This document shows positions 1 through 35,000 of a stretch of 35,000 nt of DNA, piece after piece. Origin of the DNA: Halichondria panicea (Eukaryota > Porifera > Demospongiae > Suberitida > Halichondriidae); the NCBI RefSeq assembly GCF_963675165.1, contig NC_087385.1, positions 6,156,912-6,191,911 on the forward strand. The letters run 5' to 3'. Position 1 is the stretch's first letter. The number at the start of each line of letters is the position of its first letter. Under the pieces are notes generated by a model. That model made no database searches and was not told the DNA's origin. It saw only the letters and a program-made list of their open reading frames with translations. Both the position numbers and the translations under genes were made by a program.

Positions 1-749
1 CTAACAAGACATCACTAGTGAGCACAACGTATGGAATACATGAACATTCTGTCCCCTGACCATGTAGAGCAGTTAACAAGACTTGACACAATCCTTGACA
101 CAATCCTACATGTGTACTATATGCTCATGCTTCCCATTCTCTGGCCGCCTGTACACACTAAGCTGATGTCAATTTGTACTGAATGACATTGAATCATTAG
201 CTACAGGTATCTTATTACTAAAACAGTTCAAAGCCTCTTTGATGTCCCTTTAGCCTATTAATGCCCCCATTCCCTGGATGCCTAGCTAACCACTTAATTC
301 GATTAAACAGTAGCCATGAGGCATCCAATAGTGGCCCACCTTCCTCCCAGCCGCACTGCTCTGTCAGCACTAGAGCCAGTGGGTCTGCCTGCCTACACTA
401 GTACACTAGTACGCATTCTGCCCCAGCACAGCCACATTAGGTGTGTCCCCTGCCAATACACATGCTGTATCAGGTACAGCACTAGTCTAGAGCCTTTGGG
501 TCTTCCTGCCAGTCAGTACACTAATGCACACTCTGCTACTTGTACATATCCAATTTATCAATATAGGAATGTTAATGGCTTGTAGTACACAGAGGCAGCC
601 ATTTCAAGCCATGGGAAATAAGACTAACTCAAAGAACACTTGTAGACATGCTGTTTGAAATTGCAATGGTAACCATCCAACTGCTAACAAGTTTACACAG
701 TTGAATATTGGACCCTGTCACGTAGAGCACAACAATTATATTCACTCAC
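1..749. other. Intron sequence of the SIK-like gene
   Basis: No exon, RNA gene or clear repeat is visible. It lies downstream (minus strand) of the donor at 748-749, so it is the start of kinase intron 3. An 89-codon open frame at 316-585 (+) has no conserved features. Kinase introns 814-2240 and 2358-2755 likewise hold nothing recognised. Confidence 0.5.
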
Positions 750-2878
<2,129 letters not shown>

Positions 2879-13089: not shown

Positions 13090-13508
13090 GTGACAGGGCC
13101 TAGGAAAACAACCCTTATGGAGCAAACTAATTAATTGTATTTTATTGCTTAATTAAATAAAGCAGTGCTTAAGCTTCAAATTGATTACAATATCACTCAC
13201 TTTGCACCTTCCTACCCTAAAATATTTTCGGGTGAAAGGGGGACAGTATTGACCTACCGTTTTGAGAAACTAATATTCCAAGTTCTATTCGCATACAAGA
13301 ACAGCATGAAAAAATTCAATGGCTGCCTTGTAACGGCTATACAAAAAACTTTTCGGATAAAAAATTTTTTTTTAAGTTAGAGGAGATATTGAAGTTACTT
13401 CTTATGAAAGAAAACCAAAATCCTAAAATAGCTCTAAATATTTTACTTTGTAGTGTACTGAACATTATTAGTTTGCTCCATAAGGGTTGTTTTCCTAGGC
13501 CCTGTCAC
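13090..13508. mobile_element. MITE-like element with 42-bp perfect terminal inverted repeats
   Basis: Positions 13090-13131 are the exact reverse complement of 13467-13508; both ends contain GTGACAGGGCCTAGG at the outer edge. The 335-bp interior is AT rich; its only open frame (71 codons, 13165-13380) has no recognisable protein signature. No direct target duplication of 2-10 bp is evident next to the ends, so the class is unknown. The left end is 47 bp upstream of the GRAMD1 start codon, so the element sits in that gene's promoter or 5' UTR and also in the 3' flank of kynureninase copy A. 13509-13754 holds no further feature. Confidence 0.7.
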
Positions 13509-13754: not shown

Positions 13755-16079
13755 TCAAACAGTTATTTCTTTGAGAATTTGGAAAAACCTCCAAGTGTCT
13801 TTGAACGAGTTGTACAATGGAGAAAAGGCAACTCTTGTATGGGTGAACCTGCACAGTCCAGTCTGTATGGGATGCAAAGATGATATCACTCATGGAGGTG
13901 CGATATTACAATGCTTACCAGAACACCTCTGCTTTTGAGTCTTTGGTAGGCCTCTGTCATAGGGAAGGAAAATTGAAGGGTGAGACTATTACCTCGCTGC
14001 TTCGGGTCAGAGGGGGATATCAGAGTGACATACTGACTGCCTGCAGTGTGAACAATAACTATACTAACTATAGGAGTCCAGGGATACAGTATTTGAACAA
14101 TAGACGAACTCCCCGTGGACACAAACAAAAACCATGAAATGATACAAGTACTGTACTATGCATGGTAGAGATTGTACAGTACTGCAATCTATACACTACG
14201 CACAAGTCCTCACAAACACTGACCTGGTTTTGCTTTCTCCTTAGTGAGGTAATGCTCAATGAGCATCTCCAGGTAGCCAGTGAGAATCCTGGACTTGGTG
14301 GTCAGTTCTCTCATGGAGGTGTCAGCAAACACGTCCAGGCTGGCTTTCAGACTCAGGCACTCCATCACCGGAGGATTGGAGAGTTGGAACCCAGCGGCCC
14401 CGGCCTGGAGATCCAATACTGTGGGAGGAATTTGGAATCCTTACATTCAGCACTCTTTGCATGATAACCTATAATAATTATATGTGATATCTGTGGTTGA
14501 AACCAGGTACACCACAGATAGAGGTATACATACATACATACATACATACATACGCAATACACGTCACAAGACATACTGTTGTTCATAACAAAGCGTGTTT
14601 TCATCTCATGACTCCACCATCCCAGTAGCCGTGGTAACTGTTGGTTGTGGGCGTGTTTCTCGTGTACAAAGAATCCTGCGATTCCTCCAGGTCCACTGTT
14701 GAGATACTTGTAGCTGCACCAGACAGCAACGTCCACCCCCCAGTCATGTAGACACAGCTCCACATTGCCAGCTGCATGAGCAAGGTCAAACCCAACATAG
14801 CAACCCTGCAGGAGCAAATAGGGTTTATTTATAGCAGATAATTTGTCCATTATAGAGCATTATTATTTTGTGTGGGTACGCCATCTCCGTACTTTCTTGT
14901 GAGCTGCTTTTGTGATGGTCTCCATATCAAACACATAGCCAGTCAAGTAGTGAATACCTTAATGAGAAAATAAGATAGTCTAAATATCATTTTTGAAACA
15001 TGTAGTCTTACATATACTCACCTGGAAGCCAGACTAAAGCTACAGAGTCTCCCTGCTCCTCTATCAGTTGCACCACATCCTCAGTCCTCCAAAAGTGCTC
15101 GCCCTGCGGGAGTGCAAGCATTGCAGCAGCTATCATATATCGGACTTTCTAACCTCTCGTGGAGACACAAAAATCGTTGCTTCTTTGGGGTCATAGCCAT
15201 GCCAACGCATTTGTGACTCCACTGCATACTGAAAAATGAGAATGAAAATTAACTCCTGCCAGAGTGAAGGAATGGCTTACAAAATCTGAAGGGAAGCTTT
15301 CCTTCTCCAATAGTATCTTGAATCTGTCTTTCGTGGGTTGGTAAAAGGACGCCTATAATTAAAAGGTTGTCAAATCTGGATTGCATGATACATAGCTAGA
15401 GCTAAAAGCCAACAACTCACCATGGCCAAGTGGCAGTTGACAGTGAGCCCGTTCATACACACTATCTCGATGGGTTTAGCTCCAACAATCTTTGCACTCC
15501 CTCTAGACAGCATCTCCTCCAACCCAGGCATCCATGAGTTATGCCCAAACACGTGACCTTCCATTCCTTGCAACGCCCACTTGTCGAGATGTTTTGTGAT
15601 CAACTCTCTCGCACCTTTTGGCTGAAGACCCAGGGAGACTCCATTGAAGTACATACAGTCCTGAGCAGTGTCCACTCCTGCAGCTCAGATAATTGTATGA
15701 AAGCACACACACACATGCACGATCATAATTAATTAATTATAGCTAATAAAAATACGTGCCTAGATGAACGCTTTTTTCTCATTTTTCTGCACAAGGGATT
15801 TAATTCTAACATTTTTCACCCAACACATAGCAATACCATGTAGATACTAGATCTCTATAGTATACACAGCTTGCACACACCTTCAGCTATTACTTGCCCT
15901 TCCAAGATTTCACCGATTGTCGGCAAGCAGAACTTTGCTCTAAAGGAGGCCAGTTTGTCCCTGTTGTCCAGTGTAGTTGCTAGCCTGAGGTCATCCAGCC
16001 CCACTCCCTCCCCTCCAGCCACTGACTCCAGGTAGCTCTGAATGGACTCCTTGCTCTCAAGGTAAGGAAAGCCTTCCAT
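13755..16079 (-). CDS. KYNU: Kynureninase, tandem copy A, 467 aa
   Basis: Ten exons: 15881-16079, 15421-15677, 15281-15352, 15154-15228, 15022-15103, 14893-14957, 14577-14805, 14224-14418, 13919-14040, 13755-13862. It is a PLP enzyme (fold type I) that splits L-kynurenine or 3-hydroxykynurenine into anthranilate or 3-hydroxyanthranilate plus alanine, normally cytosolic. Seen: [20 protein letters not shown], with the PLP-contacting Asp257 and His260, and WCSYKYLN with the Schiff-base Lys283 (human Lys276). Length agrees with human (465). Oddities: the GNSLGLQ motif reads GVSLGLQ, and the last exon reads [18 protein letters not shown] where copy B has [18 protein letters not shown]. An in-frame ATG at 16112 would add 11 residues; I chose the internal ATG because copy B starts there too. 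Intact, but possibly altered in substrate handling. Confidence 0.92.
14526..14553. repeat. (CATA)n microsatellite
   Basis: Seven tandem CATA units in the intron between exons 7 and 8 of kynureninase copy A. Copy B lacks it. Confidence 0.85.
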
Positions 16080-16968: not shown

Positions 16969-19183
16969 CTATTTCAGTGTTAGTTCAAGAGTCTTGAAGA
17001 ACGTCCAGACATCTTTGAATGAGTTGTATAGGGGGGCAGGGGCTACTCTCATGTGGCCATCTTTACGAAGGTCCGTCTGTATGGGAGCATTATAACGGTA
17101 ATAACTAACAGTGTGACAATCTTGCTGGTATGGTAGTTAGATTATAGTTGAAATAAAATAGCGTCAATTTTCTGGCACACCACCCCTTGCCCATAGCCTA
17201 GCAACGTAACCCAGACACCAAACTGCTGACAAACGTACGTACTCACCACAACTCCCCTACTCGCCAGCTGGTGATGAACCTCTTTGACGGGGAAGGAGAA
17301 CTGGAGGGACAATTGGGCACCACGCCTCTTAGGGTCAGAGGGGGTCACTATGGTCATATATTTTGAAGAGTCCGCTGTATGCGTGTACATTACATTTTAT
17401 ATTAAAGTTGAATTTTGGGATTACAGTCATGTTACAAAGAAAATACACACCTGCTACATTTTCTCTCTTCTCCTTAGTGAGGTAATGCTCAATGAGCATC
17501 TCCAGGTAACCAGTGAGAATCCTGGACTTGATGGTCAGTTCTCTCATGGAGGTGTCAGCAAACACGTCCAGGCTGGCTTTCAGACTCAGGCACTCCAACA
17601 CCGGAGGATTGGAGAGTTGGAACCCAGCGGCCCCGGCCTGAAGATCCAATACTGTGCACATTATTAGACATAATACACACTAACATTTGCATACGATACG
17701 TACCGTTGGACATATCAAATCGAGTTTTTCTATTGTGACTCCACCATCCCAGTAGTCGTGGTAACTGTTGGTTGTGGGCGTGTTTCTCGTGTACAAAGAA
17801 TCCTGCGATTCCTCCAGGTCCACTGTTGAGGTACTTGTAGGTACACCAAGCAGCAACGTCCACCCCCCAGTCATGTAGACACAGCTCCACATTGCCAGCT
17901 GCATGAGCAAGGTCAAACCCAACATAGCAACCCTGCAGGAGCAAACAGAGACAATCAAAGTAAGACACTGACCTCTCACACCAATTATATGTCTCTCACA
18001 TTTTCTCAGATAGTTTACGAAACACAGAATCTCACCTTGCTGTGAGCTGCTTTAGTGATTGCCTCCATGTCAAACACATACCCAGTCAGGTAGTGAACAC
18101 CTTTACAAATACAATGATATACTGCTTCCAAGTACTGTCACGTATGAAATTGAGGACTCACCTGGAAGCCAGACTAAAGCTACAGAGTCTCCCTGCTCCT
18201 CTATCAGTTGCACCACATCCTCAGTCCTCCAAAAGTGCTCGCCCTGAGGGTAACTGTTGGTAACTGGAGGTGGTAAATGTGGTGACCTATTATCACTTAC
18301 CTCTCTTGGAGCCATTACTATCATTGCTTCTTTGGGGTCATAGCCATGCCAATTAACCTGTGACTGCACTGCATACTGCAATAGAAAAAAATAAGAATAT
18401 TGTCAATTCAATTTCTCCAAACGTACAAAGTCTGAAGGGAAGCTGTCCTTCTCCAACACGATTTTGAACCTATCCTTAGTGGGCTGGTAGAACGATACCT
18501 ATAGTGTAATAATTAAGTATCAAAACAATGACAGGGACAACTATATATAGGAAGACCTCGTTACCCATTCAAGCAATCTTACTCCTCACCATAGCCAGGT
18601 GGCAGTTGACGGTGAGTCCATTCATAGGCACCACCTCAATGGGTTTAGCTCCCACTAGCCGTGCACTCTCATCCACCACGATGTCCTCTATGGGTAACCA
18701 GGCAACTGGGTCATGAAAGTGACCATACACGCCTTTCTTTGCCCATTTATCCAGATCTGCTACGATCAAGTCCTTCGTTCCCTTTGGTTGAAGACCCAGG
18801 GAGTTACCAGTGAGATACACACAGTCTTGGCTAGAGTCTATATCTGAAGATGATAATGTGGAATTTCCGAACAATGCACTCTTATAAATTATTTACAGCT
18901 CCAAAACATTTCGTCTATTCATTAATTTCCTCAGCAATGGAACACATACATGGAGCTACACACACGTACGTGTACATTAGTTACCTGCCGCCAACTTTTC
19001 CCCCTCACAGATGTCACTGATTGTCGGCAAGCAGAACTTTGCTCTAAAGGAGGCCAGTTTGTCCCTGTTGTCCAGTGTAGTTGCTAGCCTGAGGTCATCC
19101 AGCCCCACTCCCTCCCCTCCAGCCACTGACTCCAGGTAGCTCTGAATGGACTCCTTGCTCTCAAGGTAAGGAAACCCCTCCAT
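16969..19183 (-). CDS. KYNU: Kynureninase, tandem copy B, 470 aa
   Basis: Ten exons with the same intron positions and phases as copy A: 18985-19183, 18590-18843, 18427-18498, 18301-18375, 18162-18243, 18036-18100, 17704-17932, 17451-17651, 17247-17374, 16969-17076. Canonical motifs are all kept: [32 protein letters not shown] (Asp256, His259), WCTYKYLN (Lys282) and [11 protein letters not shown]. This copy is closer to vertebrate kynureninase than copy A at the variable sites, so it is the likelier ancestral-type enzyme. Exons 1, 5 and 7 are almost identical to copy A at DNA level, while exons 2, 9 and 10 are clearly diverged, which points to gene conversion. It is divergent from the orphan membrane gene, with the nested mini-elements between them. 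Confidence 0.94.
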
Positions 19184-19245: not shown

Positions 19246-19435
19246 CTGTGCACCTAGCTCGATTCAAGGTAGCCTCGATCCCAGGCCGAGTTTTCGCTTT
19301 TATAACGGTTAGGCGAACAACCAGTTGTTCGCCTAACCGTTATAAAAGCGAAAACTCGGCCTGGGATCGAGGCTAGATTCAAGGCCGATTAAAATACGTA
19401 TTTTAATCGGCCTGGAATCGAGGCTACTGTGCACC
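19246..19435. mobile_element. Outer palindromic mini-element with 9-bp target duplication, interrupted
   Basis: CTGTGCACC occurs exactly at 19246-19254 and 19427-19435 and abuts an element that begins TAGCTCGATTC (19255) and ends GAATCGAGGCTA (19426). Without the insert at 19270-19375 and one copy of GATTCAAGG, the element is a 57-bp near-perfect palindrome centred on TACGTA; its core 19382-19413 is a perfect 32-bp palindrome. No coding capacity. A 9-bp duplication suits Mutator-like transposases among known superfamilies, but no transposase is here. Confidence 0.8.
19270..19375. mobile_element. Inner palindromic mini-element (106 bp) nested in the outer one
   Basis: Arms 19270-19321 and 19324-19375 are perfect 52-bp reverse complements around a 2-base spacer. 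Ends are TAGCCTCGATCCCAGG, matching the outer element's end TAGCCTCGATTCCAGG in 15 of 16 bases. It is flanked exactly by GATTCAAGG on both sides (19261-19269 and 19376-19384), a second 9-bp target duplication made inside the outer element. It could form a very stable hairpin or cruciform. It sits about 90 bp upstream of the copy B start codon. Confidence 0.85.
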
Positions 19436-19499: not shown

Positions 19500-22003
19500 A
19501 TGCAAAGAAGTAAGTGGTTGTGAAGACCCATGAAAATAGGAAAGCAGAGAGACAGTGTGTGTGGTAGAATAAAAAATAACAAAATAGTGATTACTGATAA
19601 CTATTATGCTAACAATTATATACTCAATTTTATAATACTCTCAATTTATATCTAGTATGACTCATACTAGATATAAATTGAGAGTATTATACACTTAATA
19701 TCCATGTAGTGTGTGTATATAATTATTGTGTGGATGATAAATTTACTATAAGGTCTAGATATCATTGTCTGAAATTAGGAGCAGCCAGCTAATATGTAAC
19801 TTATAGTAGTGTGCGTATGTTTGTGTGGGTGATAAATTTTACACACATTGTCTGAAATTGAGAGTATATAGTGTGTGTATATAATTTGTGTGGATGATAA
19901 ATGTTACTATTATTATCATTGTCTGACACCTGACACCATTGGGAGTAGCCAGTAGCCAGCATTCATGACAATAGACAATAGATAGTAGCCATAATTCCCG
20001 GAAAGGAGGTGGGTTTTATATCAAGGGTTGATAAGAAGTAATGAATCTACTTGACGGGAGACTGTATAAAAGTAATCTTTGTAAACATATTTTCATTAGC
20101 AGGTCCATTCGGTACAATGTCAGAAGGAAAAGCTACACCTGATGAACTAGAGGAGCACCGTTCTTCTCACTCCAGTGAAGTTCCTGTAGAAATTGAAATC
20201 AAAAATGAAGCTTCAGTGAATGAAAATGAAAATAAATCTGGTGGTCTGTATAGCGACTATGAGAAAGAAGTTTATTCTCAGATTTTCGATGATCTTTACG
20301 AGAATTTGCCTGAAACGGAAACTGGTGGGGAAATAATCGAGTTTATCCCCAGCAAATCTGAATCACTGATGGACTTGGTTTATAGCTTTAAGGTCCGAAT
20401 CTCCTGCAGGGAAGTTAGAAAATCTCCTAAAGCTGTCGAGACTAGTCCGTTTAAGCTTTTGAACAGCTTCATGAAAAATGCTCGCAGAAGAGGATTTGGT
20501 GCAGTTGACAATATTTTGTTCCCAAATGTTGAAAGTAAATTAAGAAATATTGTGACGATTATATGGGTCATTTGTGAGTTGGTTTTTCTTTCTGTTGGAA
20601 CGGTTTTGTCTATTGTTGCTATCAGTACACCAGAGAGTGTTTCAATATACACTTGGGTGCACTTTGGATTTGCTTGCATTGGGTTTATACTTTCTGGCAT
20701 TGATGCAATCATATTCTTTCGTTCTTGCAGTAATTGCAAAGCTCACTCTAGTGATAATAGCATCCATGAAGGTGATACCCAAAATCTCTATAATACCGAA
20801 ACAGAAACAAGTGGTACTGAAGGTGGAAACCTTTCTTGTAGTAAACGCAAGTGTAGGAAATGTCATGCTCTCAAAAGAAGTGCTGAGATCTGTCGAATGA
20901 TTTTAACAGAGGTTATTGTTACACCATTATTAATTTGTGATTTGTTTGAAATCTTTGATAGTCAAGGCTACAAGACTGATGCTGGCCACCTAGATCGAGT
21001 TGGATTTGCACTATTCATAATTGACACTATAGCCACAGCTTTCTTTATGTACATTGCACGAGTACTGCTTTTGGCTGTAGCTGTATACAGCATGCATAAG
21101 ACCCAAACATCTAGATCAAATGATGATTCTGAAAGTAAAAGCAAGTTAAGCAAACGAGCTTTATACTTTGTTATCTTTATCTCAGTACATATTACTCTTC
21201 ACCTTATTGGCCATTTTATAATGTTAGTTGCAGTTGGGGCACAGATAGGGCTGGACAATCTTAGTATCATGCCACGTCTTCCTACTATCGAAACAGGACC
21301 AAATAACTACGTCGCCTCCTCATCGGCTGTTTACATGTGTTTTGCAGTTTGTGTCTTGCCAATTGCTGGAGTGTTGAGCTTCTTTATTTATGCAAACTTT
21401 TGGTTTCAGGAATGTCCAATGTCTGTCGCAGCCGATTTGCTCAATATTATCCAAACACCTGGTGGTAAGGAGATAATCGAATTCTCACAAGCTTGCAAAA
21501 ATACCCAAGAAGGTTTTGAGAAAATAGTAAACAAGCTCGAAAGAAAAAATGCTTTGCTACACAGACAATATGAAAACTTTGTCAACACAGGTATGAATAC
21601 AAAACTTTTCTTGCCTTTTCGAAATCCTGTTTTCATTGTTTTCTCCCTAATATACACTGCTCTACAGATATCATTTTTCGTAAGTGCTGGAATTGGCTAC
21701 TTAAATGTGACTAACATAGACGTCATCCCTGGGGCCGAGTGGTATTTGATTCACATTATTATTGGAGGAATTTTTGTTGTGATTGTCAACAGCTATGTGT
21801 TTATACTTGCTTTAGTATGGTTTACAGTGATAACGCTCTTCATCGCCATACAGCTGCTTGAAATTTTGCTATTCTTGTTTTGGCTTTGTAACACATGTGA
21901 CAAATTCATGGATGACCCAGCTAATGCGATAGATAGCCTGCAAAGAGAGAATTTGGAAGAAAGAGTGAATTGTATCTCCTGTGTTGCCTTACAGAGGTGT
22001 TAA
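19500..22003 (+). CDS. Orphan multi-pass membrane protein, 636 aa
   Basis: Two exons: a 10-base first coding exon 19500-19509 (ATGCAAAGAA, donor GTAAGTGG) joins 20103-22003 in frame, giving MQRSPFGT before the internal ATG at 20117. If translation begins at 20117 the protein is 628 aa and the first exon is leader. Numbering from 20117: an acidic N-terminus of about 144 residues; hydrophobic segments at about 145-169, 179-201, 259-280, 295-324, 349-376, 403-427, 503-529 and one or two more in 542-590, so roughly 8-9 passes. The TM2-TM3 loop carries CSNC and CSKRKCRKC (possible metal-binding or disulfide sites). CNTC follows the last helix and CISC is near the end. A helical charged stretch lies at about 450-490. 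No transporter, channel or receptor signature is recognised. Confidence 0.8.
19631..19691. repeat. Perfect 30-bp inverted repeat (hairpin)
   Basis: 19631-19660 and 19662-19691 are exact reverse complements with one base between. It lies in the 593-bp intron of the orphan membrane gene. It may be another mini-element; because its ends are TA, a 2-bp target duplication cannot be told from the palindrome. Confidence 0.8.
19703..19930. repeat. Degenerate direct repeats in the membrane-gene intron
   Basis: Three imperfect copies, starting near 19708, 19808 and 19870, share GTGTG(T/C)GTAT, then TTGTGTGG(A/G)TGATAAAT, then an ending close to ATTGTCTGA. They also share the GAGAGTAT piece with the adjacent hairpin. 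Confidence 0.55.

Positions 22004-30940: not shown

Positions 30941-35000
<4,060 letters not shown>

Follow-up and report, generated by a model that had tools for sequence, protein, structure and literature searches.

Architecture of the locus

The window (the whole stretch of 35 000 nucleotides that was analysed) holds at 19246–19435 an inner element of 106 bp inserted within an outer element, and direct reading shows that each is flanked by an exact 9 bp target duplication (TSD), as listed in Table 1. The outer element as a whole spans 19255–19426 and measures 57 bp once the inner element and one target copy are subtracted; this 57-base remainder, TAGC-TCGATTCAAGGCCGATTAAAATACGTATTTTAATCGGCCTGGAATCGAGGCTA, is the form seen elsewhere in its family, for example at C1:7856796, minus one C. 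The palindromes of 57 and 106 bp with exact 9 bp duplications on both sides, described in the earlier note, were thus confirmed by direct reading of coordinates and duplications. The end form (T/C)CCAGG claimed there is present at three of the four ends and fails at the outer left end, TAGC-TCGATTCAAGG, where one base has been lost and one C changed to A; among the 58 bp copies genome-wide the end of the outer family reads TAGCCTCGATTC(A/C)AGG. Since the inner target matches known uninterrupted sequence of the outer family, the order of insertion, outer element first and inner element second, is secure, and the claim that the events can be ordered stands. The inner element corresponds to both ends of a non-coding 1.08 kb family (family A). 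In single-strand folding the 106 bp palindrome (−67.4 kcal/mol, z −19.7) and the 58 bp palindrome (−32.1 kcal/mol, z −13.3) both give a nearly complete fold.

Five tip-like matches were observed in the window against 0.15 expected, and two of them, with three mismatches each (15021 and 18161), lie in the two copies of a tandem duplication. These copies (14235–16079 and 17468–19183) are about 3.1 kb apart, are 81–99% alike in matched blocks and read as a minus-strand gene of several exons; their translations appear kynureninase-like, but two of the exons gave no Pfam match. A perfect 42 bp inverted repeat (GTGACAGGGCCTAGG...; 13090–13131 and 13467–13508, 335 bp apart) is MITE-like with different ends, and its 14-base flanks share no 9-mer. 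An AT-rich palindrome at 19626–19696, in which 35 bp arms (94%) enclose a loop of one base, lies 190 bp beyond the right end of the nested pair and differs from it in sequence, and a CA/TG microsatellite of nearly 500 bases (about 31490–31975) opens spurious long frames on both strands.

Table 1. Features of the nested pair in the window, longer elements with related tips and fold-back sites elsewhere in the genome.
Feature	Position	Strand	Description
Outer TSD, left copy, CTGTGCACC	19246..19254	no strand	Direct reading
Outer element, left part, TAGC-TCGATTCAAGG	19255..19269	+	Direct reading; last 9 bases are the inner target
Inner TSD, left copy, GATTCAAGG	19261..19269	no strand	Direct reading
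Inner element, 106 bp palindrome	19270..19375	no strand	Direct reading; 52 bp perfect arms around CA
Inner TSD, right copy, GATTCAAGG	19376..19384	no strand	Direct reading
Outer element, right part	19385..19426	+	With 19255–19269 gives the 57 bp family B palindrome
Outer TSD, right copy, CTGTGCACC	19427..19435	no strand	Direct reading
L033, family D	106–1676		TSD ATTCCACCA; first 20 bases identical to those of the inner element
L034			3161 bp; TSD GGTTTTCGT; part of DUF6589
L035	77–5719		5643 bp; TSD GTGTTTACC; DUF6589; on the opposite strand DEAD, Helicase_C and RecQ_Zn_bind
L037	1878–7452		5575 bp; TSD ACTCTACTG; tip TAGCCTCGAGACCAGCC; DUF6589; on the opposite strand DEAD and Helicase_C
Fold-back L083			Exact inverted-flank run of 17
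Fold-back L090			Exact run of 11; duplicate L091, run of 5
Fold-back L078			Exact run of 6
Fold-back L079			Exact run of 4
Fold-back L092			8 of 9 bases inverted; exact runs of 1–5 in L092–L095, apparently copies of one locus

Copies and target duplications in the genome

Both elements carry the tip TAGCCTCGATYCCAGGCC or a variant of it differing by one or two bases. In the genome of 131,455,214 bases (39 contigs), eukaryotic to judge by size and split genes, the 20-base tip pattern with up to two mismatches gave 3949 forward and 3881 reverse matches (about 7,800), whereas the reversed pattern gave none in either orientation. The non-autonomous mobile family that the earlier note had proposed is supported. 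The same paired tips were not found in prokaryote genomes and viral contigs, a collection from which records near the host genome may be excluded. With up to three mismatches allowed, 83 places hold the 58 bp outer palindrome; among the 50 of these that were listed, all 30 places with one mismatch have CAAGG at one end, some of them being copies of one carrier repeat, and CAAGG is a variant of the family. For the 106 bp inner palindrome, 18 forward and 17 reverse matches with up to three mismatches were counted as 19 places including the window. At six further places the copy is identical to that of the window (seven identical copies in all), and each of the six has its own, different exact TSD, five of 9 bp and one of 10 bp.

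Flanks were read for 20 of the 83 copies of the 58 bp form, 19 of them usable, and for a separate copy in L023, which has no exact duplication. An exact direct TSD, always of 9 bp, was present in 16 of the 19 and absent from three; the 16 represent 12 distinct sites, because five copies sit in copies of one carrier repeat. Among the 106 bp copies, 16 of 18 have an exact TSD (13 of 9 bp and three of 10 bp) and two have none, L067 and L068 being the same site. The 1.08 kb copies have one in seven of nine cases (four of 9 bp and three of 10 bp), the exceptions being L015, with one mismatch, and L028 1334–2418, with no duplication; long elements of families D, E and F have an exact 9 bp TSD in five of six. 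Among the elements with flanks read, an exact duplication is absent from the family D copy in L019 and from L038, L050, L051, L070 and L072. The 10 bp duplications were first noted as a one-base offset and were interpreted as 10 bp after the description of AcademH was met. Insertion at 9 bp staggered cuts, as originally suggested, accordingly describes most copies read, with 10 bp occurring as well. At L070 (G000:C1:9785151–9785256) the 106 bp copy abuts a DUF6589 match at C1:9785257 without a direct duplication; the left side there is the end of a family A arm, and the copy looks chimeric.

One carrier repeat, with the duplication GGGGGGTGC, contains the element at five places; eight further places are empty and show GGGGGGTGC only once. 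Compared with the sequence searched, six of the empty places have one mismatch, one has two and one has three, and none is exact; the four for which the letters were shown have the same base difference, and the empty places may represent a sister subfamily of the carrier repeat. A search for an empty copy of the second carrier repeat (AGTCCGGCT) found none, so that the empty-site check succeeded for one carrier and not for the other. In the loci read, which included 20 regions of 10 kb chosen around listed tips and not randomly, the 9-base flanks agree at 8 or 9 positions for 22 of 94 opposed tip pairs up to 8 kb apart, and cross-pairing the flanks of different elements as a control gave 0 matches in 454. 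Palindromes can expand by replication slippage, and a reading of these sequences as chance or satellite-type palindromes and not insertions could also point to the carrier repeat lacking an empty copy; it is nevertheless extremely improbable in view of exact 9 or 10 bp duplications at dozens of sites, the absence of matches in the cross-pairing control and the eight empty places of the other carrier.

The bases flanking the TSD are biased palindromically, as (G/T)(C/T)(A/T)N – 9 bp – N(A/T)(A/G)(A/C). This bias was computed on 47 distinct exact 9 bp sites (94 half sites; 60 elements listed) from L009–L088 and the window and holds for that sample, in which the elements had been picked by their tips; a C occupies the third outside base at 56 of these 94 half sites (p = 5e-16 in a binomial test against 0.21).

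As to recent activity, the perfect 52 bp arms put forward in its favour are a weak argument, because one arm of a palindrome can serve as the template on which the other is made or corrected. Better evidence of recent spread comes from identical copies at separate sites, such as the six identical 106 bp copies with TSDs of their own. From identical or nearly identical units at many sites with different duplications, together with the common CAAGG change, we infer that the 58 and 106 bp palindromes move as units.

Longer elements with the same tips

Elements of 1.6–5.6 kb that have the same or closely similar tips and 9 bp TSDs contain parts or all of a set comprising DUF6589, a zf-AD-like protein and a RecQ-type helicase in the opposed orientation. 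The first 20 bases of family D are those of the inner element. In L019 the family D copy has a zf-AD domain (E = 1.5e-7, above the cut-off) and, on the opposite strand, part of a DEAD helicase, and the copy in L033 encodes a protein 98% like the zf-AD protein together with a DEAD helicase exon. A genome search with the zf-AD protein gave 75 matches with E up to 1e-5; L034 and L035 were reached through its more distant matches, and L037 through the DUF6589 search and the tip list. The zf-AD domain passes the Pfam cut-off only in family D (L019), falls below it in L034 and L035 and is absent from L037, and no family D copy still holding DUF6589 was found among the copies read. The DUF6589 exons of L035 match with E = 1.9e-15 and 2.7e-31, the best PDB matches of the L037 helicase are WRN and BLM at 1e-36, and the helicase fragment of L034 gave no helicase match in the domain search. 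The variant end of the outer family, TAGCCTCGATTCAAGGCCG, agrees with the 3' end of L035 at every one of 19 bases; the outer left end in the window lacks one of these bases.

The full-length element with the same ends and a predicted transposase, for which the earlier note had advised a search, was thus found in L035 and L037, with DUF6589 as the candidate. Two full-length, putatively autonomous elements with DUF6589 and helicase were read. DUF6589 (Pfam PF20231, labelled as of unknown function) was matched 82 times in this genome and not at all in 14 control genomes. The motifs GDN, GGDQ, EDWH and LHxEHxNR are common to the DUF6589 proteins of L035 and L037 and may form a D-D-E active site; a search by sequence for relatives of solved structure gave a single chance-level match (E = 0.11). 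Domain content and shared tips together suggest that the DUF6589 protein would be the transposase that recognizes the tip and moves the miniature elements in trans, which points to a transposase function for a domain to which Pfam assigns none. DUF6589 also occurs in longer open frames, at G000:C9:1650827 (1732 codons), C14:4797543 (1732) and C3:3629098 (1617).

The earlier note had named a Mutator-like (MULE) transposase as one possible mover. MULEs commonly make 9 bp duplications, and the genome contains 28 MULE-domain matches, several of them in long open frames. Four of the 28 loci were read, as 6 kb pieces in which elements longer than 6 kb would be missed; separate tips lie near the MULE gene in two of them, but in none does a pair of tips enclose the MULE frame, and MULE transposase was rejected as the mover on that basis. 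The long elements with the same tips bear DUF6589, zf-AD or RecQ-type helicase parts, and no MULE domain was found in them, which makes movement by a MULE transposase very unlikely. The alternative offered in the same note, another group with 9 bp duplications, is probably the right branch, with TSDs of 9 or 10 bp and a helicase in the long elements.

Formation of the miniature palindromes

Exact-tip pairs with 0–30 bases between the 16-base tips number 100, and a further 72 have 31–61 bases between them, the listed forms reaching down to 39 bp; flanks were read in 23 of the 100 shortest (20 together with L009, L012 and L014). At L012, a sequence repeated in tandem every 74 bases occupies positions 528–2175 within a dispersed repeat that L009, L010 and L014 also contain.

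Two routes to such miniatures are suggested by the arrangement of the long elements and of the miniatures themselves. Nine long elements of families A, B, D, E and F were compared, and in eight of them part of the tip is repeated in inverse orientation slightly inward of each end (CCAGGCC ... GGCCTGG or a near match to it). The remaining one is the 285 bp element L010 4261–4545, which was considered as a parent of the 59 bp form and rejected, since it is the nested 59 bp form itself holding another element; this 59 bp element, at GGGGGGTGC, contains a 226 bp element that has CCGTATAGCGCGAAATTT ends and, read by eye, a TA duplication at its TACGTA centre. By the first route, a deletion running from the subterminal GGCCTGG of a long element to the terminal one would leave a miniature. 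The predicted products, of 48 bp for family B and 72 bp for family A, both exist, at C6:2567061 and C1:16166210. Products for family D and for the other end of family B were not among the two miniature sequences compared, and for F and E the scripted deletion rule produced nothing usable.

The second route is suggested by the flanks. Among 20 miniatures of 44–60 bp, exact direct TSDs flank five (44, 44, 45, 48 and 60 bp) and TSDs with one mismatch flank another two, whereas nine loci, representing five distinct sites, have no direct TSD at the palindrome and are flanked instead by inverted copies. At these five fold-back sites (Table 1) a palindrome of 50–53 bp lies between inverted copies of 4–17 bp of flank, compared with inverted-flank runs of 0–3 in all other elements with flanks read. 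In L078, L079, L083 and L090 an exact direct 9 bp TSD is found further out, around a composite in which a second tip (such as TAGCCTCCTTCACAAGG) accompanies the inverted flank and the palindrome, and by eye the seven visible bases of L092 agree with the same plan. The turning point of the fold-back is a small hairpin (such as CTCTTCCTCGAAGAG). Because what is repeated inversely is the flank of the site itself, the palindrome must have been made in place after insertion of an older element, and because the flanks are inverted these miniatures did not come from deletion. Insertion of the 53 bp miniatures into other elements was rejected, since it would give direct and not inverted copies of the outer flank. 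L089 fits neither route.

On the evidence of these junctions, the simplest process for the palindromes with inverted flanks appears to be snap-back synthesis: a strand would snap back on the small hairpin inside the tip, copy the tip and some host flank inversely and then join the rest of the old element, leaving a palindrome between inverted flanks. Some snap-back palindromes would later move as units, like the 58 and 106 bp forms. In the part of the source available, foldback inversions of yeast are described in which single-strand hairpins yield inverted duplications of adjoining sequence (PMC7467729). The inverted adjoining sequence at L078, L079, L083, L090 and L092–L095, with its hairpin, is alike; the yeast events, as described in that portion, are a source of chromosome rearrangement, whereas here the outcome would be a new transposon-like unit.

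It might be supposed that the shortest palindromes never move and are decay products of longer copies that have lost their middles in place. In favour of this, many miniatures of 44–53 bp each have an individual interior, formation in place is seen at five sites and two miniatures correspond to simple deletion of a long parent. Below 58 bp, miniatures with direct TSDs may be explained equally well by deletion after insertion, because their interiors are individual. As a general account decay in place is nevertheless improbable: the 58 bp form, even with some places being carrier-repeat copies, is widely dispersed, with the same end change at 30 of the 50 listed places and exact TSDs at the 12 distinct sites, and the other six places of the identical 106 bp form have different exact TSDs of their own. 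Decay in place applies to some miniatures below 58 bp and not to the two families of the window, which are better regarded as mobile units. Their origin may have been either by snap-back or by symmetric deletion, which look the same in these families because the two ends of the parents are alike.

More speculatively, transposition might proceed through a folded single-strand or cruciform substrate exposed with the help of the RecQ-type helicase, the 58 bp palindrome thus being competent and the same folding giving birth to miniatures by snap-back that captures flank; we regard this as a possibility of rather low likelihood. If true, it would account for a 58 bp palindrome that works despite being too short for its ends to meet easily by duplex bending, and a single genome would display two readable stages, birth in the inverted flanks and movement in the direct duplications. 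The origin of MITEs from full-length transposons is an old question for which few intermediates are available. This genome shows long parents, miniatures that match simple deletion products, palindromes made in place with inverted flanks and dispersed palindromes with direct TSDs side by side, and a repeated, target-duplicating unit of 58 bp provides a test of models of transposon end synapsis.

Comparison with known transposons

AcademH reportedly comprises the helicase-encoding DNA transposons of the Academ superfamily, said to have been described by Kojima. The elements reported here are very probably miniature palindromic, non-autonomous members of such an AcademH-type, helicase-bearing group, for which formation by deletion and snap-back is proposed. 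In the sections available of the IS481EU paper, AcademH has duplications of 9 or 10 bp and AcademX of 3–4 bp, and the length seems to be related to the encoded helicase or nuclease (PMC10045372). The likeness to the AcademH of that account lies in the RecQ-type helicase and in the 9 or 10 bp TSDs: DEAD and Helicase_C domains are present in the putative autonomous elements L035 and L037, the termini of the window elements recur in the helicase-bearing elements L033 and L035, and 9 or 10 bp duplications flank the 58 bp, 106 bp, 1.08 kb and long D, E and F elements. Judged by descriptions of AcademH in other papers, the family behaves as AcademH does and probably belongs to it. Its candidate transposase is the Pfam domain DUF6589, which by element anatomy may be the Academ transposase. 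The portions of the AcademH descriptions at hand do not mention palindromic miniatures of 39–106 bp such as those found here.

Mutator-like TSDs are 8–10 bp long, and the 9 bp TSD found here is thus shared with MULEs and does not discriminate; the open reading frames tested from L033, L034, L035 and L037 gave matches to other families or no match at all, and no MULE transposase appears in elements with the same tips. Mutator-type foldback elements make a 9 bp duplication. In the excerpt consulted, the foldback elements of root-knot nematodes (Tm1; PMC3169594) have long inverted-repeat arms in common with the present elements; as presented there they are Mutator-type, whereas the elements here have another coding partner, are far shorter and fold back within the tip. 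The target duplication of Kolobok is TTAA, which differs from the TSDs found here. A helicase is also carried by KolobokH, according to the part of the paper seen (PMC10799480).

Searches of the open-licence literature, beyond which other printed work may exist, gave no name for this family among the papers listed and no paper on DUF6589, and searches there for Academ with sponge and MITE, or for the smallest or shortest MITE or transposon, returned nothing useful. The family shares with MITEs its high copy number, with thousands of tips, its inverted ends, its lack of coding sequence, its shortness and its target duplication. MITEs are usually about 100–600 bp in size, and the nearly all-palindromic 58 bp unit, present at its 83 places, lies below that range.
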